Virus record (IMG/VR): IMGVR_UViG_3300025127_000109 | Location: 1 to 36,755 of that record | Direction: 5' to 3' (one strand) | Source: a virus | DNA length: 36,755 nucleotides | Shown: positions 6,704 to 33,471 of the stretch, piece by piece | Position numbering within the stretch: the stretch's first letter is position 1 | How the letters are laid out: each line of letters starts with the position of its first letter | The notes under the pieces: model-generated | What the model was told of the DNA's origin: nothing | The model's input: only the letters and a program-made list of their open reading frames with translations | The model's database searches: none | Made by a program: the position numbers and the translations under genes

Positions 6704-7117
6704 ATGGAAGATGTTGAGATAATCAAAGGTCTCGTAAGTCTATTCCCCGAAGCAATGAGGGGGACTGAAAAAGCTATTGATAAATTCAGCACTTTTGATT
6801 TCTCAAACAATACTTATCTCATAGAAATAAAATCCAGAAGGAAAAAATATGACCCCTGGATAATAGAAAAAAGCAAGGTTGATTCCAACTGTGAAGTAGC
6901 AGACAAAACAAATCGTCAAGTTCTGTACGTGTCCGAACATAAGGGTACTGCTCACGTTTGGAACATAACTAAATTATTACAAGATGACTACGACTTCGGA
7001 TGGTGCAAAAGAAACCTACCAAGAACTACTGAGTTCAGCAGAAGGGAGTGGATATCAAAAGACGTTGGGTATGTGTACGAGAAGGACGCTAAGTCCTTTG
7101 AGCTACTACCTGGTTAG
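6704..7117 (+). CDS. Possible PD-(D/E)XK nuclease-like protein, 137 aa
   Basis: The segment 'FDFSNNTYLIEIKSRRKKYD' has the D-Xn-E-x-K shape of a PD-(D/E)XK core, and an N-terminal helix carries 'GTEKAIDKF'. It could be a resolvase or nicking nuclease, but no family is recognised. The in-frame GTG 6656 follows an AAGAGG motif and would add 16 residues; ATG 6704 gives a cleaner N terminus but has no Shine-Dalgarno. It is the last rightward gene. Its 3' end overlaps the convergent 1148-aa gene by 12 bp, with no terminator between them. Confidence 0.6.
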   Translation: MEDVEIIKGLVSLFPEAMRGTEKAIDKFSTFDFSNNTYLIEIKSRRKKYDPWIIEKSKVDSNCEVADKTNRQVLYVSEHKGTAHVWNITKLLQDDYDFGWCKRNLPRTTEFSRREWISKDVGYVYEKDAKSFELLPG

Positions 7118-10100
7118 AGCTTTTAATCGTTGCAGATCGGTTATGATTCTTGCAACTTCCTCATCAAGGATATCTCTCTGTTGCATAGTTTGCAGATAAG
7201 GAGCAAGAAGTTCTGGTGGCATAGTATTAATTTTATTTAAGAAGTACTCAGCCCTTACGACCTTTGTCTTATTCTTTAGACTCCTATCAGCCCCAGTAAT
7301 ACCAAGGCGATCATCAATAACTTTCTTATTAATGGACTTGAGTATAGCCTCAGCCAACAAAGGGTCTTCCACTTGCGATAAAGTGTCTTGAAGAATTAGC
7401 CTTTTCTCTTCGGGAGTTTCTTTCTTCTTCATTTTATTGAAGGTATTTGTAGCCAGTCTATTGCCCTTTTGAAGCCTAGTTGCGTACACCTTACTCAAGT
7501 TCTCTAAAGTATCAGCGTCATAATTTCTAGCCTCAAAAGTTTTCATTGGGCTTGTCCCGAAAAACCTTCTTGCGATAGGTAGTTCTGCTGGTTTAAGTTC
7601 TTCTTTATTAACAACTCTTGAAGTAAACTCAAACAATCTTCTTACTGTATTACCGGGGCCACCAACAAACGTCTGGTACAAATGCAAAAGGTTTTCTGGA
7701 GAAACTTCCATACCCATAGTTTGTAACTGTTCGGCGAAAGAAATTGCCATCTCTCCACCCCTAGTTTCCATAGTCCAGGGATAAACTTTTTCTACTTCAC
7801 TAATGTTCTTGGTCTCAAGCCAAGGGGGACGAATGTCTCCTCCTAGACCATCCTCATTTTTTGCAAGCTCTACCCAAGGGCGAAACGGACTGGGCCATAT
7901 AGAACCACCCATCGGGTTATATCCGTCTATGAAAGCGCTGGTTAACTCTCCGACCTTATCAAGTTTTGTCTTGTCCATCTCTGACTGAGATGGTTGTATA
8001 CCCATTAGACCTTGTTGAATAATTTTTTGTTGAAGATAATCAGCTGTCTTTTTTACTGGATATATTGAGTAACCAATCGGCACTTGGAAGTATGACAGAT
8101 TTCCGTCCTCATCCACACCAGTAACAATGGTTAAATTTTTGTCCAGTCTCCAGCTACCACCTTGTCTGGATTTTAGTTTTTCTTTCCAGTCGGGGTCAAT
8201 GCTCTGGTTGTAAAGATCAAGTGATAATGTTGTTGCCATCAGAGTACCCATTACTCCTCCAGCAACTCTTCTGTTACTCATTGATCTAATGAAGTTTCTT
8301 GCACCTTGTATCGAAGGATTAGCAAATAAATAACTAGCCCGGAGTACATCTCCTTGTGTTCCTTTTACCAAAGGGTCAAACGAACTGTCACGAGCAGCAA
8401 GCGCAGCTTGCTTGCGTGTCATTCCATTATTCAAGGCTTGTCGGTAGACATTGAACCTGGTTGAGTCCTCAACATAGGAGTTAACTCTCTCAAGAAGATC
8501 AAGACCCTTTCTTAGAGTTGTTTTAGAACTGGGTTTATGAAGAGTTTTCTGAAGAGCCTTAATAGCTTCCTCTGGGTCTTTGACTGTTGCAGCGCCCAAG
8601 TTTCCGGTGCTACCTCCGTCCTCAACGAACTGCTTATAAAGGGCGTCCATCTTAGCCTCCTCTGGGTTGCTGGATACTCTGTTTTTATTTAGAATGTTTC
8701 TACGAATAGTTCGTATGTCATTGACTGGATTAACAACTTTAATTGCATTACCCAAGTCCATCTTCGCTGAAGCATTTACAATGGCTTCTGACCTATCTCT
8801 AAACAAATTAGGTATAACGAACTCTGGATTAAACCTAGTGTAAATACTTCCTAGTGTTCTGTTGTACCACAAAGCAGCCTTCATATATGTTGGAAGAACA
8901 GCTTTGTTGCTACCCTTCATAGCAGCAGCAAGTCTCTTGTCCTTGAACGCCATTGATGTTCTCACGCCGTTGTCGAACACAGTTACTACTGCGTCCCGGT
9001 CAACGTCCCTTGGAACATCTGGCTTTCCACCGGGCTTTGATCCTTCTTTTACATTCTTTGATCTATAAATCGTTACGACATTTCTTGCGGCTTTTCTGTT
9101 TTCTTGTTTTTGTACAAGTTTTAAGAAGGACTGATTAGCCTTGTTTACCTCAGCCATCCTAATGGCTGATGACAAGTTACCAAGAATGTTTGCGGAGACT
9201 TCATTCACAGATTTGTCAGAACCTATAGCTGTGTACAAACCGGGACTAAACTGTCCACCCTCGTCCATTACACGATTCAAGGGAACGTAGTTAGGATATT
9301 TTTCTCTTAAAGATTTAGCGTACTTAGAGCTTACTATTCCACCCTCTTCGAGGGTGTCTAGTATTTGTCTAGACATACTGGCCCTACTCTCAATAACTTT
9401 GTCTAGTGTCTTATGAAGCCCAGAGTCCTCGAATGTTTTTATAATGTCCTCAGCGTCTTTATTACTAATGCCAGCTGGAGACCCTTCTCCTTTGTATGAC
9501 TTGGACTTTGCTTTATTGAACTGTATTGCGTGTTTAGCGTACAGATACTTGTCAATCATCTTAGATAATTCACTAGCTTCCATACCCATTTCGTCAGCCT
9601 TGCTGACAAGGAACTGTCCGTCTAATTCAAAGATGTCTTTAACTTCTGCGTTCTTAGCCGCTATAGAAACTTCAGCTAAACGAGAGTTCAAGTTATAATC
9701 AACGTCGTCATCCAGTACTTCAAAGACTCCTTTCTTGGATTTTATTTGATTACCACCAGAGGTAAGTTGTAGCTCTTGAAGTCTAGCCCGATTATCCATA
9801 GTGGACTCTTTTATTGCCAGTCTAAAATCAGAATAATTTTTTCTAACGTCTTCCTGGTGGCGCAAAGCATTCTTCATTATTCCGTCAACAAGTATTCTTG
9901 CGTCCGGATCACCCATTCTAAGGGCTTTATTAAATTCTTCTCTTCCTACCCCGGCGTATTTCTTATAAGCCCCTTCTAGTTTTGAACCAACAGCACCGAG
10001 TCCAGCTCCTAATATTGCACCATCAACACCAGCTGACATAACTTCTTCTTCAGTAGGAAGTCTGTCTTCGTTGATAACTGTTGACATTGTTTCTTCCCCA

Positions 10101-10552
10101 GCTGTCAGTCCAGCCCCAACGATTGCTTGACCAGCCATAGTATTGGCTGTCTTATTCTTAAATAATGTAAGAGCTTTTGGAATTGGTATTATGTTTATAA
10201 ACGCTGAAGCAATAATGTTTCCGTAGTCAATTTCTTGACCCAGCATTTTTTGTCTAGTGTAAGCACCAGACGCTCCACCAGCTAGTCCTCCTACGACCCA
10301 TCCAGCAGCTGTTCCTATGATTGGAACAGCGCTACCAGCCGCAGCCCCTCCAAACCTTCCACCTTCAGATATTGCTAATTCAGCCGCTAATGCAGCAGCG
10401 TTCTCTCCCATAGTGGGATCATCGCCAGCGGTCTCTTCAGCAACAGCCATAGCAACGTCCTCGGACGCTTCACGAGTAGCATAATTATCGTACGCTAGTT
10501 TTTTTGCTCGAAGTTCTTCAAGTCTTTTTGCTTGCTCTAAGGAAAGAACCAT
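7106..10552 (-). CDS. 1148-aa polyvalent/internal virion protein with LPD38-like region
   Basis: The longest gene and last of the late operon. Residues 55-190 are very rich in Gly and Ala with hydrophobic runs ('AAGWVVGGLAGGASGAY'), suggesting a membrane-active segment. The middle is helical. Residues 560-600 ('LWYNRTLGSIYTRFNPEFVI' then 'PNLFRDRSEAIVNAS') match the LPD38-type signature of polyvalent proteins, which in podoviruses are usually large virion proteins injected with DNA. The C-terminal third is charged and helical. An ejection or internal-core role is inferred from size, position after the tail genes and this domain. I see no protease or lysozyme motif in it. Confidence 0.75.
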   Translation of the reverse strand: MVLSLEQAKRLEELRAKKLAYDNYATREASEDVAMAVAEETAGDDPTMGENAAALAAELAISEGGRFGGAAAGSAVPIIGTAAGWVVGGLAGGASGAYTRQKMLGQEIDYGNIIASAFINIIPIPKALTLFKNKTANTMAGQAIVGAGLTAGEETMSTVINEDRLPTEEEVMSAGVDGAILGAGLGAVGSKLEGAYKKYAGVGREEFNKALRMGDPDARILVDGIMKNALRHQEDVRKNYSDFRLAIKESTMDNRARLQELQLTSGGNQIKSKKGVFEVLDDDVDYNLNSRLAEVSIAAKNAEVKDIFELDGQFLVSKADEMGMEASELSKMIDKYLYAKHAIQFNKAKSKSYKGEGSPAGISNKDAEDIIKTFEDSGLHKTLDKVIESRASMSRQILDTLEEGGIVSSKYAKSLREKYPNYVPLNRVMDEGGQFSPGLYTAIGSDKSVNEVSANILGNLSSAIRMAEVNKANQSFLKLVQKQENRKAARNVVTIYRSKNVKEGSKPGGKPDVPRDVDRDAVVTVFDNGVRTSMAFKDKRLAAAMKGSNKAVLPTYMKAALWYNRTLGSIYTRFNPEFVIPNLFRDRSEAIVNASAKMDLGNAIKVVNPVNDIRTIRRNILNKNRVSSNPEEAKMDALYKQFVEDGGSTGNLGAATVKDPEEAIKALQKTLHKPSSKTTLRKGLDLLERVNSYVEDSTRFNVYRQALNNGMTRKQAALAARDSSFDPLVKGTQGDVLRASYLFANPSIQGARNFIRSMSNRRVAGGVMGTLMATTLSLDLYNQSIDPDWKEKLKSRQGGSWRLDKNLTIVTGVDEDGNLSYFQVPIGYSIYPVKKTADYLQQKIIQQGLMGIQPSQSEMDKTKLDKVGELTSAFIDGYNPMGGSIWPSPFRPWVELAKNEDGLGGDIRPPWLETKNISEVEKVYPWTMETRGGEMAISFAEQLQTMGMEVSPENLLHLYQTFVGGPGNTVRRLFEFTSRVVNKEELKPAELPIARRFFGTSPMKTFEARNYDADTLENLSKVYATRLQKGNRLATNTFNKMKKKETPEEKRLILQDTLSQVEDPLLAEAILKSINKKVIDDRLGITGADRSLKNKTKVVRAEYFLNKINTMPPELLAPYLQTMQQRDILDEEVARIITDLQRLKALTR

Positions 10553-24470: not shown

Positions 24471-25481
24471 TTATTTTACGTCTTGAATCAAGCCGTGAGC
24501 TTGTGGGTGATAGACCCCAAGTGTCAAGGCACAATCAACAAAACCACGTTCACCGCCACCATTGTTAGGCTGACGAGTTGAACCCATAGGAATGAGTTCG
24601 TGAACACCGTAGTACTCTGGGTTGACGAGGTAACCGCTTGAGTTAGCAGTTGTTCCGCCAAAGTTAGGCATACAGTCTGGGTTAGCGTTTACGATAGAAA
24701 CGACACCGTGGTCGCTTTGGTAAAGCTCTACAGAGAGCTTGATTGCTGCAACACCGCCGTCGTAGTTTACGTTACGGATGCTTGTTTCAGTTGATACTGT
24801 TGATAAACGAGCGAAGTCGCTGATTACACGACGAAGACCAACATCAGCCACAAGGACAAGACCATTGGATACTCCGTTTACTTCAAAGATGCTTGAAATA
24901 AGATCGTTGAATATAGTTTCGCTGAAAGCATCAGATGCTGATTCAGTCGCTGTGTAGATGCTACTTGCTGGAGTCTTGAATCCAGCAGGAACAGTTGAGT
25001 CAGCTGCAGCGCTGTCAATGAATCCACCAAGACCAGTCATCTTGTAAGGATCAGTAGCAGTAGCTTGTTGCTTTATGTTAGTAGAACAGAGAGTTGCTTC
25101 GATGTCACGCTTTAACTCACGAATTGCTTTAGCTTCAGCTTGAGCAATCTTAGCTGGGCCAACGGACTCAACAGCTTCTTGTAGATCAGAAACTTTGTAG
25201 TCACGACGGAACTTCTGTGTGAAGTTACCCATACGAGCACGACCAGCAAACTGGTCGGTGTGAGTTATAACGTCTGCGCCTTCAACGATACCAGCTGTGC
25301 TGGGTGCGCTGAGAACGTCAACAGTCCACTCTGTGTTAGTAGCTGCGGCACGTTGTTTCGATGCCGAGGAAAGGACGGGAGTTTCTTCTGGAGCGAGAAT
25401 AGTCAAGACATCAGTCAAGTCTTCTCTATTGGAAACAGCCGACCCTGGAGGTGTTGTATCATAGGTATTTGAGAATGCCAT
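24471..25481 (-). CDS. Major capsid protein (SU10/DUF5309 type, HK97 fold)
   Basis: 336 aa. The opening 'NREDLTDVLTILAPEETPVL' (residues 18-37) and 'EWTVDVLSAP' (51-60) are the hallmark of SU10-type capsid proteins. A basic helix 'FTQKFRRDYKVSDLQEAV' and 'AIRELKRDIEATLCS' follow. The C-terminal part is beta-rich ('VVSIVNANPDCMPNF', 'GYLVNPEYYGVHELIPMGST'). It assembles the icosahedral shell. It lies between scaffold and terminator, as expected. There is no Shine-Dalgarno before its ATG; the leader is AT-rich. Confidence 0.92.
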   Translation of the reverse strand: MAFSNTYDTTPPGSAVSNREDLTDVLTILAPEETPVLSSASKQRAAATNTEWTVDVLSAPSTAGIVEGADVITHTDQFAGRARMGNFTQKFRRDYKVSDLQEAVESVGPAKIAQAEAKAIRELKRDIEATLCSTNIKQQATATDPYKMTGLGGFIDSAAADSTVPAGFKTPASSIYTATESASDAFSETIFNDLISSIFEVNGVSNGLVLVADVGLRRVISDFARLSTVSTETSIRNVNYDGGVAAIKLSVELYQSDHGVVSIVNANPDCMPNFGGTTANSSGYLVNPEYYGVHELIPMGSTRQPNNGGGERGFVDCALTLGVYHPQAHGLIQDVK

Positions 25482-29549: not shown

Positions 29550-29924
29550 TTATTGAAGCTTAGGTGCTTTAATATATTTATATTTTACTTTTTCTCCAGA
29601 ATGGTCAGCTTCAAAATATATTACCTTTGATGTAAGTTTACCAGATAGAGCAAGTGGAATTTGAACTGGTATCTTTTGTATAGTTCCCCTGGACTTTACA
29701 AAAACAAATCTAGGGTTAGGTGCTTGTGAAATAACTACCCCTCGATCTATAACTACCATCGGGATCAAGTCTTCAATTATGTCTTGTCCTCTCTCTGATA
29801 TCCATAAGTTTTTCCCACGACCAGTTACTTGCTCTTCTTCGAGCTTATTGGTAACAAGATCGTAAGCCTTATCAAATGTCATTCCGTATTCCTCGGCTAT
29901 GTCTTTTAGTCTCTTCTTTGGCAT
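29550..29924 (-). CDS. Hypothetical protein with winged-helix-like N terminus, 124 aa
   Basis: 'KRLKDIAEEYGMTFDKAYDL' resembles an IF2-N/winged-helix recognition motif, and 'KNLWISERGQDIIEDLIP' completes a small helical domain. The C-terminal half is beta-rich ('VFVKSRGTIQKIPVQIPLAL', 'VIYFEADHSGEKVKYKYI'). It lies between large terminase and portal, and its ATG overlaps the terminase stop. A DNA-packaging accessory role is possible. Confidence 0.7.
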   Translation of the reverse strand: MPKKRLKDIAEEYGMTFDKAYDLVTNKLEEEQVTGRGKNLWISERGQDIIEDLIPMVVIDRGVVISQAPNPRFVFVKSRGTIQKIPVQIPLALSGKLTSKVIYFEADHSGEKVKYKYIKAPKLQ

Positions 29925-31582
29925 TAGTAACCTCCTTTGTTGTTTTTAGTTGCGATCATTGATCCTTGGCTTATAAAGTCTGGGCCTTCTCCTCCGTTGG
30001 ACATACGCAAGTAACGTATTACATCGAAGAAGTCCTTGAGTGCTTCGTCAGCTTTTCCCCTTGACCCATAGTTAATTAAACTGTCAATCAAGTTTCCACA
30101 GTCCTTATGTATGTAGCACAGAGGTCTATTTGCTTCATCTATGTCTATATTAGGATTGTAATTAAACCAGTCGTCCAGGGCAGCAATGCCCTGTTCCTCC
30201 ATAACACCACTTGAAGGAATAAAATTAATTCCGTAGTCATAGAAGGCTGTGAATAAGTCATCGTTGTTTTCGTTTTCTCTAGCGAAAAATCTGGAGTCCC
30301 CAATCCTTTCAGTAACCTTTAAATTTAAGTCCCCTTCTATTTCCTTGAAGAGTTCGCAGTATCCTTCTACGTTGTAACCTACTTTCTTGGACGCTGGGCC
30401 GTACTTCCATTTGGGGTCACCAAACATAGCCCATTCTCCGTATGATGCCCGGTCGGGCCATTCGGCTCGTATATAAACTTCGCCAATTTCATTTACCCCA
30501 GCCCAGATCATAGTGTAGTTCCTAGCCCCAGCTGGGTCAACAACTTGATACACCGTAAATTTCTTAGTGTCCGATATGTCGGGGAAGGTCATACCGTACT
30601 TGTTTGGTTCTTCTGACAGTACGTTTACTTCTGTGTTGAAGTAAGGTAGCAAAGAATTGGTTGACTTGACTGGTAGCCCGTACGCACGAACTTTTATTTC
30701 GTCATCGGGTCGTCCTTCTAAGTCCTTAGCTATACGCTCATATCCCCCGAAGGGGTTTTCGTCGGAATGAAGGTATACTACTGCAGCGTCCCTTGATGGA
30801 CTGTATTGCGCTACTGGTACTGCTTTGTTGTTCAGCAAGACAGCTGGTCTTGTTTGTATGGTCTCGGCGTTTTTAAGGTAGTCAGCAATGAAGGGAGTAT
30901 AACCATCAATCGGCGTAAAGCCGATTATCATTTTGCTATCACGAGTAGCCAGTCTGAATCGAAGTGTATTAACTAGAGCAGCGTCACCCAGGTATTCGTC
31001 TAACCAAGCCCCAATGTTGTTACCCTTGGGACTTTTGAACCCGAACTCAAAACCTTCCAGTATTGTTTGGTTATTACTGAACTGAGTGTAAGTTTTAAAG
31101 TCAACCCTAGTTCTAGTGTCTGGAAATATAAAACTACTCCCGGTGAAACCATTTTGCATACTATAATTAATATATCCTTCAATACTTTTTGTTTTCTTTC
31201 TAAACTCCTTGGGCATCATAGACCATACAGCAGCTTGCTGTACTTTAATAGATGTATCAGCGTTTTGACTGAAGCATACAATATGACCATCGGAGTTATC
31301 AATTACTGCTTGCATTAGCATCTTGGCGCACCCGGTCGTCTTACCACTTCTGTTTCCACCGAGGGCTAGAACTTCGTTGAACTCGTCCAGACCAGCTTGT
31401 ATACGAACCCAACCCTCTAGGTCGAACCCGTGACGTACTGGGTCTTCTATGGAGGACTTAATCCTACCTTCGTGTGCTATATAAAGTTGCTCCAGCAACT
31501 TTGGGTCTTTTTCACCTAGAGCTATTATTTCTTCGTCTGACGGAGCTGTTAGACAAGGGTGTTCTGTGAATACTAGCTCCAT
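29924..31582 (-). CDS. terL: Terminase large subunit
   Basis: DNA-packaging motor ATPase and nuclease, 552 aa. Walker A 'GGNRSGKT' (75-82), Walker B-like 'IGAWLDE' (190-196), then coupling motif 'IIGFTPIDGYTPF'. The C-terminal RNase H-like nuclease has 'YQVVDPAGARNYTMIWAG' (Asp349 as first metal ligand) and 'ERIGDSRFF' (Asp429 candidate second). It works with the small subunit upstream and docks on the portal. Confidence 0.95.
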   Translation of the reverse strand: MELVFTEHPCLTAPSDEEIIALGEKDPKLLEQLYIAHEGRIKSSIEDPVRHGFDLEGWVRIQAGLDEFNEVLALGGNRSGKTTGCAKMLMQAVIDNSDGHIVCFSQNADTSIKVQQAAVWSMMPKEFRKKTKSIEGYINYSMQNGFTGSSFIFPDTRTRVDFKTYTQFSNNQTILEGFEFGFKSPKGNNIGAWLDEYLGDAALVNTLRFRLATRDSKMIIGFTPIDGYTPFIADYLKNAETIQTRPAVLLNNKAVPVAQYSPSRDAAVVYLHSDENPFGGYERIAKDLEGRPDDEIKVRAYGLPVKSTNSLLPYFNTEVNVLSEEPNKYGMTFPDISDTKKFTVYQVVDPAGARNYTMIWAGVNEIGEVYIRAEWPDRASYGEWAMFGDPKWKYGPASKKVGYNVEGYCELFKEIEGDLNLKVTERIGDSRFFARENENNDDLFTAFYDYGINFIPSSGVMEEQGIAALDDWFNYNPNIDIDEANRPLCYIHKDCGNLIDSLINYGSRGKADEALKDFFDVIRYLRMSNGGEGPDFISQGSMIATKNNKGGY

Positions 31583-31590
31583 AACTTTGA

Positions 31591-32112
31591 CTAAGTTTCT
31601 ATTACGTCAACACGTTTCATTTCATCAATCCTAGCCCTAGCAGCGGCTAGGGTCTCTTCGTAGTCTTGTTGTGTGACAACTTGTCTATCCTCAGTTATGG
31701 AACTAGCCTCACCACGAGAGGTCATAGCCTCCCTAAAAGAGTTAGCCTTGGCTATTGATAGTTCCTTTAAGTCCTTGAAGCTTACTTCCATTTCGGGGTC
31801 GTTCTCCATTCTGTCCCGAACCTTGTCTATCAAATCTTCCTCCAAGGAAGATATGTTCATATAGTTCTTCGCTGAAACTTTTCCAGCTACTTCTCTAAGT
31901 TTGCCCAGATGATCAGAGTAATCTACAAGAACATTCAATATAGTATTTCTAGAGAAACCATACTTTTTAACAAGAGCAGTTTGGCTTGTTCCTTTGCTGT
32001 ATAGGTAAAGTAGCTTTGCTACTTTATCTGGGTTATACACAGAAAGGCTTTTGATTTGGGATAGTTGTTTGACCTCTACTACTTTATCAATAGCTGATTT
32101 TATTTCATCCAT
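31591..32112 (-). CDS. terS: Terminase small subunit (putative)
   Basis: A DNA-binding helix-turn-helix 'GTSQTALVKKYGFSRNTILN' is followed by a long helical region ('SSLEEDLIDKVRDRMENDPE'), the usual small-terminase plan of DNA-binding domain plus oligomerisation helices. First gene of the late operon, 8 bp before the large subunit. I use ATG 32112, which follows AAGGAAGAG at proper spacing inside the predicted message. ATG 32145 would sit at the predicted transcription start and be leaderless. It probably recognises a pac/cos site, not identified here. Confidence 0.75.
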   Translation of the reverse strand: MDEIKSAIDKVVEVKQLSQIKSLSVYNPDKVAKLLYLYSKGTSQTALVKKYGFSRNTILNVLVDYSDHLGKLREVAGKVSAKNYMNISSLEEDLIDKVRDRMENDPEMEVSFKDLKELSIAKANSFREAMTSRGEASSITEDRQVVTQQDYEETLAAARARIDEMKRVDVIET

Positions 32113-32152
32113 TAGCTCTTCCTTGCCAGTAGGTGACTCTTCCATAGGGCAG

Positions 32153-32192: not shown

Positions 32193-32223
32193 TTGACAAG
32201 GGACTTGGCACTTGTGTTACTAT
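32193..32223 (+). promoter_or_regulatory. Rightward promoter P-right with extended -10
   Basis: TTGACA (32193-32198) and TGtTACTAT (TG at 32215-32216, -10 at 32218-32223) are separated by 19 bp. The extended -10 compensates for the long spacer. Predicted start near 32230, at the first base of the structured non-coding region. Its -35 is 11 bp from the -35 of P-left, so both cannot easily be occupied at once. Confidence 0.65.
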
Positions 32224-32229
32224 ACCAAT

Positions 32230-32575
32230 ACATAGTCCAGGAAGTAAGCCCCGATGCGGGTGATAACGATTTCCGGGGATAGCCACCCGAAGGACACTAA
32301 ACTTCACGGTACTGCACTAGGAATAATGCCTCTTGGGGACAAGGGTCAGCCCGCTGCAGTATAGGTTCGTACCCCTGAAGTAGCGTGAAGGGTACGATAA
32401 AATAATGCCTGTGACTTATGGATAACTCTTCGATAATACCTAGTCTGACTTCGGTCTACGTCATAGATGCTTCGCTTATGGCGAAGCTGTACCTTGAAAT
32501 ATAAGAGTTATGTCGCAAAGCCCCATCAGCCTTGGGGGCTGAGGGGCAAACGCCCTTGAGCAAGATATTTTTTTG
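32230..32575 (+). ncRNA. Candidate structured non-coding RNA, ~340 nt, two pseudoknots
   Basis: No ORF of note lies here, yet many complementary segments do. GTCC 32235-32238/GGAC 32292-32295 encloses CCCCG 32249-32253/CGGGG 32274-32278, knotted with CGGGTG 32257-32262/CACCCG 32284-32289. CTTCACG 32302-32308/CGTGAAG 32384-32390 encloses TACTGCA 32310-32316/TGCAGTA 32355-32361 and a GGGA-capped stem (32330-32345), and is knotted with CGTACCC 32368-32374/GGGTACG 32390-32396. ATAACTCTT 32422-32430/AAGAGTTAT 32503-32511 encloses a TTCG tetraloop hairpin (32447-32456) and GCTTCGC 32469-32475/GCGAAGC 32481-32487. AATAATGCCT occurs twice (32322, 32401). I could not match it to tmRNA, RNase P or a group I intron by eye. 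Function is unknown; folding is by hand only. Confidence 0.6.
32520..32574 (+). terminator. Terminator at the end of the structured RNA
   Basis: An 11-bp stem with one bulged A (32520-32531 with 32537-32547, GCCCC and TCAGCC arms) closes a TTGGG loop. A run of seven T (32568-32574) follows 20 nt later, farther than usual for an intrinsic terminator, so the hairpin may instead be a 3'-end stabiliser. Confidence 0.6.
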
Positions 32576-32799
32576 AGGCGTAGTTTATGTATATATAAAG
32601 AAGGCTTGCATTTTTTTCTGACTCCCACCACCCCTTAAAAAGTAGTGTGCATATGTTTACTGCATTTATGTTCACTAGTTTTTGCTTCTGGATGGCCCGA
32701 ATGGACTTTGATTAATCAAAATGCGATTTTTAAACGATCAAAGTTTTCTTTTTGAGTGATAAAAATATTCTTTTGGAATGCAATATATTAGGGTAGCAT

Positions 32800-32922
32800 A
32801 TTAGCGTTACTTATAACCTAATCTACTATTAGATTTGCTAATTCCGGGTTGAATATGGATCCTGGTATAAGCATAGCTAATCCGGGTGCGACGAACCCAT
32901 AAGCACGGCTAATATAGCCCGT
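32800..32922. repeat. GCTAAT repeats and GC-rich hairpins
   Basis: GCTAATTCCGGGT (32837), GCTAATCCGGGT (32876) and GCTAAT (32908) recur, and an inverted ATTAGC lies at 32800. The outer ATTAGC/GCTAAT pair encloses AATCT (32820-32824)/AGATT (32831-32835). GGGT-7nt-ACCC (32884-32898) resembles a T-arm in shape but not in sequence. ACGGCT/AGCCCGT (32905-32922) makes another hairpin. AAGGCTCT follows twice (from 32924). Possibly binding sites or a second structured RNA. Confidence 0.45.
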
Positions 32923-32953
32923 AAAGGCTCTGTAAGGCTCTAGAAAGCGTTTT

Positions 32954-33137
32954 CATCTTTTTGCGACACTAGGTATTCAAAAACATTTTAAAGCCCATAT
33001 ACGCAAAGTCGATTTTATCCATCTTTTTGGCAAAAATATCCATCTTTTTGAGTCAAATTGACTCATTTATTAATTACTTATACTAGTTATAACTTATATA
33101 AGCTGTTCTAATACAATCATTTAAGGCATCTTTTTTA
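32954..33137 (+). repeat. Iteron-like CATCTTTTTG repeats
   Basis: CATCTTTTTG occurs at 32954, 33020 and 33041, and CATCTTTTTT at 33128. The two central copies are part of a longer repeat, ATCCATCTTTTTG, 21 bp apart (two helical turns). All four face the same way in AT-rich DNA, as origin iterons or protein-binding sites do. Confidence 0.5.
33050..33064. promoter_or_regulatory. Perfect dyad GAGTCAA-A-TTGACTC
   Basis: A 15-bp perfect inverted repeat with a single central base, abutting the last of the paired CATCTTTTTG copies. The size and symmetry fit a dimeric regulator's operator. It contains a TTGACT -35-like half but no matching -10 was found. Confidence 0.5.
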
Positions 33138-33324: not shown

Positions 33325-33471
33325 CTGACAATTTACTATTATTGAAAGCTAGTGAGTAAAATGAACGAATCTATTGAAAGCTAGCAAGCCAACTCACGCA
33401 AATTGCTTTCACGTTAGCTGTTGGCGTTGCCAATTCATTCTGAATTGGTACAGAGATTTGCACTGTTAAAA
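33325..33471 (+). promoter_or_regulatory. Structured early leader with duplicated 13-mer, mini-ORF and dyad
   Basis: TATTGAAAGCTAG occurs at 33340-33352 and 33372-33384. A 7-codon ORF (ATG 33361 to TAG 33384) ends inside the second copy. A perfect 8-bp dyad, CCAATTCA/TGAATTGG with a 3-bp centre, lies at 33430-33448. The arms around AGCTAGTGA (33348-33356) and the TCACG...TTAGCT stretch (about 33409-33419) can also pair. This could be an operator, an RNA attenuator, or both, controlling the gene at 33472. Confidence 0.45.

Follow-up and report, generated by a model that had tools for sequence, protein, structure and literature searches.

What is encoded in the long noncoding stretch that lies between the packaging genes and the early genes of an uncultivated tailed phage? 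The window analysed here is the whole contig of 36,755 nt (IMG/VR record IMGVR_UViG_3300025127_000109). Its late genes run leftward and include a terS-like gene at 31591-32145 (minus strand, 184 aa), which precedes a terL-like gene (29924-31582, matching phrog_2), and the gene for the major head protein (24471-25481); its early genes, for an ERF recombinase, an exonuclease and a DnaB-type helicase, run rightward. The name terS is taken from position and family, and a profile search gave no TerS match. In the 1.3-kb noncoding stretch with terS on one side and the early genes on the other we find a conserved structured RNA core, the type A RNA, on the plus strand at 32231-32494.

A predicted sigma70-type promoter (32193-32223, plus strand) precedes this core, with a -35 box TTGACA at 32193-32198 and, after a spacer of 19, an extended -10 box of the form TG-n-TACTAT (TGT-TACTAT) at 32218-32223, from which transcription would start at about 32230. 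Window-like homologs have the same CTTGAC...TG-n-TATAAT layout, 8-10 nt 5′ of the sequence AUAGUC, so that the strong promoter named in the preliminary description recurs; its statement that the region holds no useful ORF was also borne out, as none of 40 aa or more was found on the plus strand. Folding of the single sequence was within chance (z = -1.6 for 353 nt and -1.1 for the core), and the claim of an RNA therefore rests on its homologs. Profile and pattern searches of uncultivated phage contigs, using nhmmer and a covariance model, gave 34 intact copies, of which 32 were distinct after removal of near-duplicates and were aligned. They fall into three sets: window-like sequences (G1), a divergent set (G2; L182-L192 and L232-L241) and a third lineage (L272, L273). 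Within the helices G-U pairs outnumber A-C oppositions by 150 to 28, which identifies the plus strand as the folded one.

The extent of the RNA had to be redrawn at its 3′ side, where a boundary at 32575 and an end at a GC-rich hairpin had been proposed. That hairpin (Hk, 32520-32547, plus strand) is present, but the conserved core, of about 265 nt, stops near 32494; by sequence and alignment Hk belongs to a variable tail, an interval that an HNH ORF occupies in divergent relatives, and the conservation past 32553 is that of a separate DNA element reaching to about 32635. The tract of seven T residues at 32568-32574 may serve as a terminator of the RNA; in the window no strong hairpin stands immediately before it, and in G2 a textbook terminator hairpin lies inside the conserved module (about L187:7410-7434).

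The aligned variants show that the plus-strand product folds into three parts: a three-way junction on the 5′ side, an arm capped by a GNRA loop, and a 3′ domain with a pseudoknot, which presents a near-invariant loop of 22 nt. This compact RNA has ten or more helices, together with a GNRA hairpin and one pseudoknot. Helix arms were scored in every sequence (n=34) by their position relative to conserved flanking motifs. The 5′ junction domain (32235-32295) is closed by GUC (32235-32237) with GAC (32293-32295), around helices Ha, Hb and Hc. Ha (32240-32244/32270-32274) occurs as 7 arm pairs, GGAGG/UCUCC giving way to UAGGG/CCCUA and this to CCUUG/CAAGG, with 161/170 cells paired; Hb (32248-32251/32258-32261) is paired in 109/136 cells, and Hc (32274-32277/32286-32289), whose loop carries an invariant UAGC, in 136/136, with 5 arm pairs. 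The next arm, He (32312-32316/32355-32359; 16 distinct arm pairs, 184/204 cells paired), is capped by the hairpin Hf (32330-32335/32340-32345; 195/198 paired), the loop of which, GGGA at 32336-32339, conforms in nearly every homolog to a GNRA tetraloop (GGAA, GGGA or GUAA).

In the 3′ domain, Hg (32368-32374/32390-32396) has 14 distinct arm pairs and 231/238 cells paired, with changes on both sides at 5 of its 7 pairs; Hh (32409-32415/32460-32466), with 12 distinct arm pairs, is paired in all 234 cells and changes on both sides at 7 of 7. Hh encloses the 3′ arm of the pseudoknot and the hairpin Hi (32447-32456), a GAC/GUC stem of variable length with 12 distinct arm pairs, GUUC/GAAC and GGCA/UGCC among them; the final hairpin Hj (GCUUCGC/GCGAAGC, 32469-32487) is paired in 238/238 cells and mostly invariant. 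The pseudoknot joins UAGGU at 32362-32366 to ACCUA at 32438-32442 and is paired in every sequence (170/170 cells), as UAGGU/ACCUA, UGGGU/ACCUA or, in one lineage, UGGGU/ACCCA; only one of its base pairs covaries (AU, GU, GC), and the evidence for the pseudoknot is accordingly weaker. Between Hh and the pseudoknot lies the near-invariant single-stranded 22-mer UUAYGGAUNACUNUUCGAUAAU (32416-32437, read in 34 sequences), a candidate functional site.

Much of the structure read earlier from the window alone is thus retained: at least nine stems had been counted and ten helices are present and conserved, and the GGGA tetraloop is real. The TTCG tetraloop exists in the window, as the UUCG loop of Hi (32450-32453), but is not conserved in homologs. 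One of the two pseudoknots claimed is the UAGGU/ACCUA pairing above, while a second was not identified; and the proposed 9-bp long-range helix (AUAACUCUU/AAGAGUUAU), although found in the window and as 8 bp in six close relatives, is at chance level in the other 27 sequences.

An alignment of homologs had been suggested as the check on this fold, which a lack of covariation would have refuted; covariation is present, and the comparative evidence is far beyond chance. Counted on the tree, compensatory double changes came to 46, whereas 500 simulations that kept the number of changes per column gave 3.0 on average and never more than 8; pair-breaking changes numbered 31, against a null mean of 95 and minimum of 71. 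In a second, independent test a covariance model was made from 13 G1 sequences; it recovered all 32 members, the divergent ones included, at 100-157 bits. In its alignment 99.1% of cells are paired, none of 500 shuffles being as good, and sliding the partners by 1-3 columns lowers pairing to 33-53%. A plain MAFFT alignment was concordant for Hf (97.9% paired), Hg, Hj and the pseudoknot. These compensatory base changes across homologs place the type A RNA among structured noncoding RNAs.

Where is this RNA found? Every intact homolog that we checked adjoins terS, head-to-head and pointing away from it; the terS-like gene, divergent from the RNA and homologous across all loci, is its constant neighbour. 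Carriers of the RNA all fall within a single clade of the terS tree; of its 46 sequences 30 have the RNA, and two groups nested in the clade do not (the node joining G2 to the rest has a support of only 0.46). The phage group carrying it is probably aquatic as well as uncultivated. TerS and TerL relatives are plentiful in IMG/VR, and among named phages the only near relative by TerL is phage C75C1 (75% identical). A host search via TerL in 1145 sampled genomes, from the classes of G001, G002 and G003, gave no match. No type A RNA was detected by the covariance model at E<=5 in 99 other terS-relative loci (747 kb), nor elsewhere in the genomes that have no copy at terS, and blastn against named phage and plasmid records found no carrier. 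When bacterial genomes were scanned with a 19-nt pattern, 32 matches appeared, scattered and chance-like, and none of them matched the profile. The RNA is missing from the two nested groups and from relatives that hold a different candidate in its place (type B, below), and so is not essential to the family; a co-occurrence screen found no window protein whose presence coincides exactly with that of the RNA, and hence no obligate partner gene. In G2 members such as L187 an 80-aa HNH_3 gene lies directly behind the RNA (L187:7167-7409, between core and terminator), whereas most members have no HNH gene. The G2 promoters of the RNA and of terS overlap head-to-head around one TATAAT, which probably makes their transcription mutually exclusive there.

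We then asked whether the type A RNA belongs to a known class. Searches of Rfam 15 (4227 families, GOLLD, ROOL, HEARO, tmRNA, RNase P, pRNA and group I/II introns among them) gave no match at gathering threshold for the window or for 14 related loci, and at E<=5 three members gave only chance matches, outside the core. The failure to match tmRNA, RNase P or group I introns noted from the sequence thus extends to the profiles, even at E=5, and the Rfam negatives leave no recognisable member of GOLLD, ROOL, HEARO, group I/II introns, tmRNA or RNase P; of the two options given in the preliminary description for a large phage RNA, a new class or else a divergent form of a known one, the former is supported. 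ARAGORN found no tRNA-like domain in the window, so the RNA is neither a tmRNA nor a tRNA. A literature search, which mostly could not reach subscription papers, found no description of it. We consider a new class of viral RNA very likely; the novelty is that of the RNA family and not of a mechanism.

Several known systems are nevertheless instructive for comparison. GOLLD and ROOL are large phage and prophage RNAs, many GOLLD RNAs exceeding 800 nt, which often lie near tRNA islands and form RNA nanocages (PMC12286853). The type A RNA is like them in being phage-encoded, elaborately folded and conserved, without assigned function and known largely from metagenomes (PMC12286853), but it is much smaller, is located at terS and has no match to their covariance models. 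The cabRNA of staphylococcal phages, about 400 nt, arises from within the terS-terL coding sequence, is diverse in sequence and is sensed by a CBASS cyclase (PMC10686824); it too is a structured RNA from the terminase locus (PMC10686824), whereas the type A RNA is strongly conserved and has its own intergenic, divergently oriented gene. With HEARO/OMEGA RNAs it shares a similar size and, in some members, an adjacent HNH nuclease gene, but there is no Rfam match, and the adjacent HNH protein has only 80 aa and no RNA-guided nuclease domain that we could find. In the window the RNA is not the 5′ UTR of a regulated gene: the next plus-strand ORF of more than 60 aa begins at 33421, about 780 nt past the conserved DNA module, which argues against a riboswitch or leader in the window-like group, while in G2, where the HNH gene follows directly, the RNA could be a leader.

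The DNA beyond the RNA has its own conservation. Of about 115 loci, 104 have a module upstream of terS, at 32553-32635 in the window, which consists of TGAG-N5/N6-ATTTTTTT (also given as TATTTTTTT; 32557-32574), an AT-rich box TTTATGTATATATAAA (32584-32599) and a C-box CTCCCACCACCCC (32622-32634). Across more than 100 related phages its pattern is TGAG-N5-TATTTTTTT ... TTTATGTATATATA ... CCCCCCACCCC, whether the RNA gene is present or absent; six relatives (L012, L013, L014, L019, L024 and L244) have the module with no RNA gene between it and terS. It is therefore a separate DNA element and not specific to the RNA, and may be packaging- or origin-like. A cos end at the module was considered; the 370 nt that follow are enriched in contig ends, but these do not share a common point, and such a spread lends no support to cos. 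The enrichment, 0-370 nt past the C-box, could reflect sequence that is hypervariable or difficult to assemble, or packaging ends that vary.

In most other relatives the same slot holds an unrelated promoter-driven RNA candidate, type B, for which 83 of 94 distinct sequences cluster. It is characterised by UACCUUAAGGnnnCCAAGCCUUAA..., repeated CCUUAAGG motifs, a strong promoter and a T-tract end, has no Rfam match, and is located between terS and the module (in L032, L047, L049, L103, L129 and others).

We propose that the type A RNA represents a new class and comes from a separate noncoding gene with its own predicted promoter, and, as a best guess, that it acts in trans during infection via its near-invariant loop; we give this reading a probability of roughly 0.55. 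The gene faces away from terS and is kept in one phage clade. Host sigma70 RNA polymerase would transcribe it from its own predicted promoter, separately from the early operon and either early or constitutively, and transcription would end near the T tract at 32568-32574. Least certainly, the product may work in trans, either as the folded RNA itself or as an RNP, its near-invariant loop perhaps binding a host or phage protein, or the ribosome or polymerase; it would then be neither protein-coding nor a nuclease guide nor a cis leader. That promoter and terminator are recognised at the level of pattern, and that the T tract has no strong hairpin beside it, counts against this explanation, as do the HNH gene directly behind the RNA in G2 and the lack of the RNA in two nested groups of its own clade and in type B relatives. 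At odds somewhat short of even, we would go further and see in it a new RNA machine, either a pseudoknotted 265-nt ribozyme or a protein-binding decoy or scaffold with its own promoter, in a terS-boundary slot dedicated to infection-specific RNAs; sister phages carry the unrelated type B candidate at the same locus, which would make the slot itself a dedicated RNA site.

Other explanations appear less probable. The RNA is the first transcribed element toward the early operon, is pseudoknotted and promoter-proximal and has a T tract right behind it, all of which would suit a nascent-RNA antiterminator like the put RNAs of HK022, staying on its own polymerase and carrying it past terminators toward the early genes. 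We regard this as unlikely, for a candidate promoter belonging to the early genes lies at about 33291 (ATTAGA-16-TATAAT with TG), put elements are far smaller than about 265 nt, and sister phages of similar gene order do without the RNA. It is also rather unlikely that the RNA is a ribozyme or selfish element, behaving like mobile introns and travelling with a homing-type HNH endonuclease. Group I introns have a conserved P7 with R (GACUA) and S (UAGUC) motifs and a P3-P8/P7 pseudoknot; they interrupt a gene and self-splice. The helix order and pseudoknot topology here (P3-like, hairpin, P7-like, P3′, P8-like, P7′) recall that core, long single-stranded segments are invariant and a GNRA loop is present, and in G2 the HNH_3 ORF lies directly downstream. 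However, Hh, the helix in the P7 position, varies freely at 7/7 pairs and has no GACUA partner, the R/S motifs are missing, and the RNA is intergenic, behind its own predicted promoter and not inside a gene, all of which argues against a group I intron; Rfam gave no match to introns of group I or II at E<=5, and the RNA is inherited within one terS clade, not scattered, with most members free of HNH.

Proximity to packaging functions recalls the pRNA of phi29, which the packaging motor there requires, and the RNA always adjoins terS with a conserved DNA module next to it; it might thus work with the terminase, or act at that packaging-like module. This we think improbable, since no such RNA exists in a phage that has the same module and whose TerS and TerL are 66% and 78% identical. 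Size and fold differ from those of pRNA, no phage pRNA family in Rfam matches, and pRNA is not known outside phi29-like phages, which are without TerS, while this phage has both TerS and TerL and its relatives manage without the RNA. Equally doubtful is a role in cis, in which the RNA would prime replication at the AT-rich and C-rich boxes downstream, or the overlapping divergent promoter would mainly switch terS off early. The cumulative GC skew does reach its minimum near the RNA locus, and the head-to-head overlap in G2 would fit such a switch; but the module persists without the RNA, and interference between promoters would by itself exert no selection for a covarying fold.

New RNA classes that are complex and highly conserved are rare, and often they are later recognised as ribozymes, regulators or RNPs. 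Since the type A RNA now has a tested structure, a constant gene position and 32 natural variants in alignment, its function becomes testable. Our analysis also reveals the terS-adjacent slot, in which sister phages hold another uncharacterised RNA candidate. GOLLD and ROOL (PMC12286853) are precedents for phage RNAs without an assigned role, and cabRNA (PMC10686824) for an RNA at the terminase locus.

Elsewhere in the window, a minus-strand gene at 7106-10552 encodes a protein of 1148 aa, kin to DarB-like antirestriction proteins and to phrog_616/14770 proteins, that is present in only 2 of 18 relatives compared. In the noncoding stretch preceding the early genes, repeats CATCTTTTTG and TATTGAAAGCTAG occur at 32950-33135 and 33340-33384. 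Six TAAGCNNNNCTAAT-like sites are clustered at 32787-33112 (9 in the window, where 3.4 are expected); the cluster is operator- or iteron-like, and comparable motifs are found at the same region in relatives.
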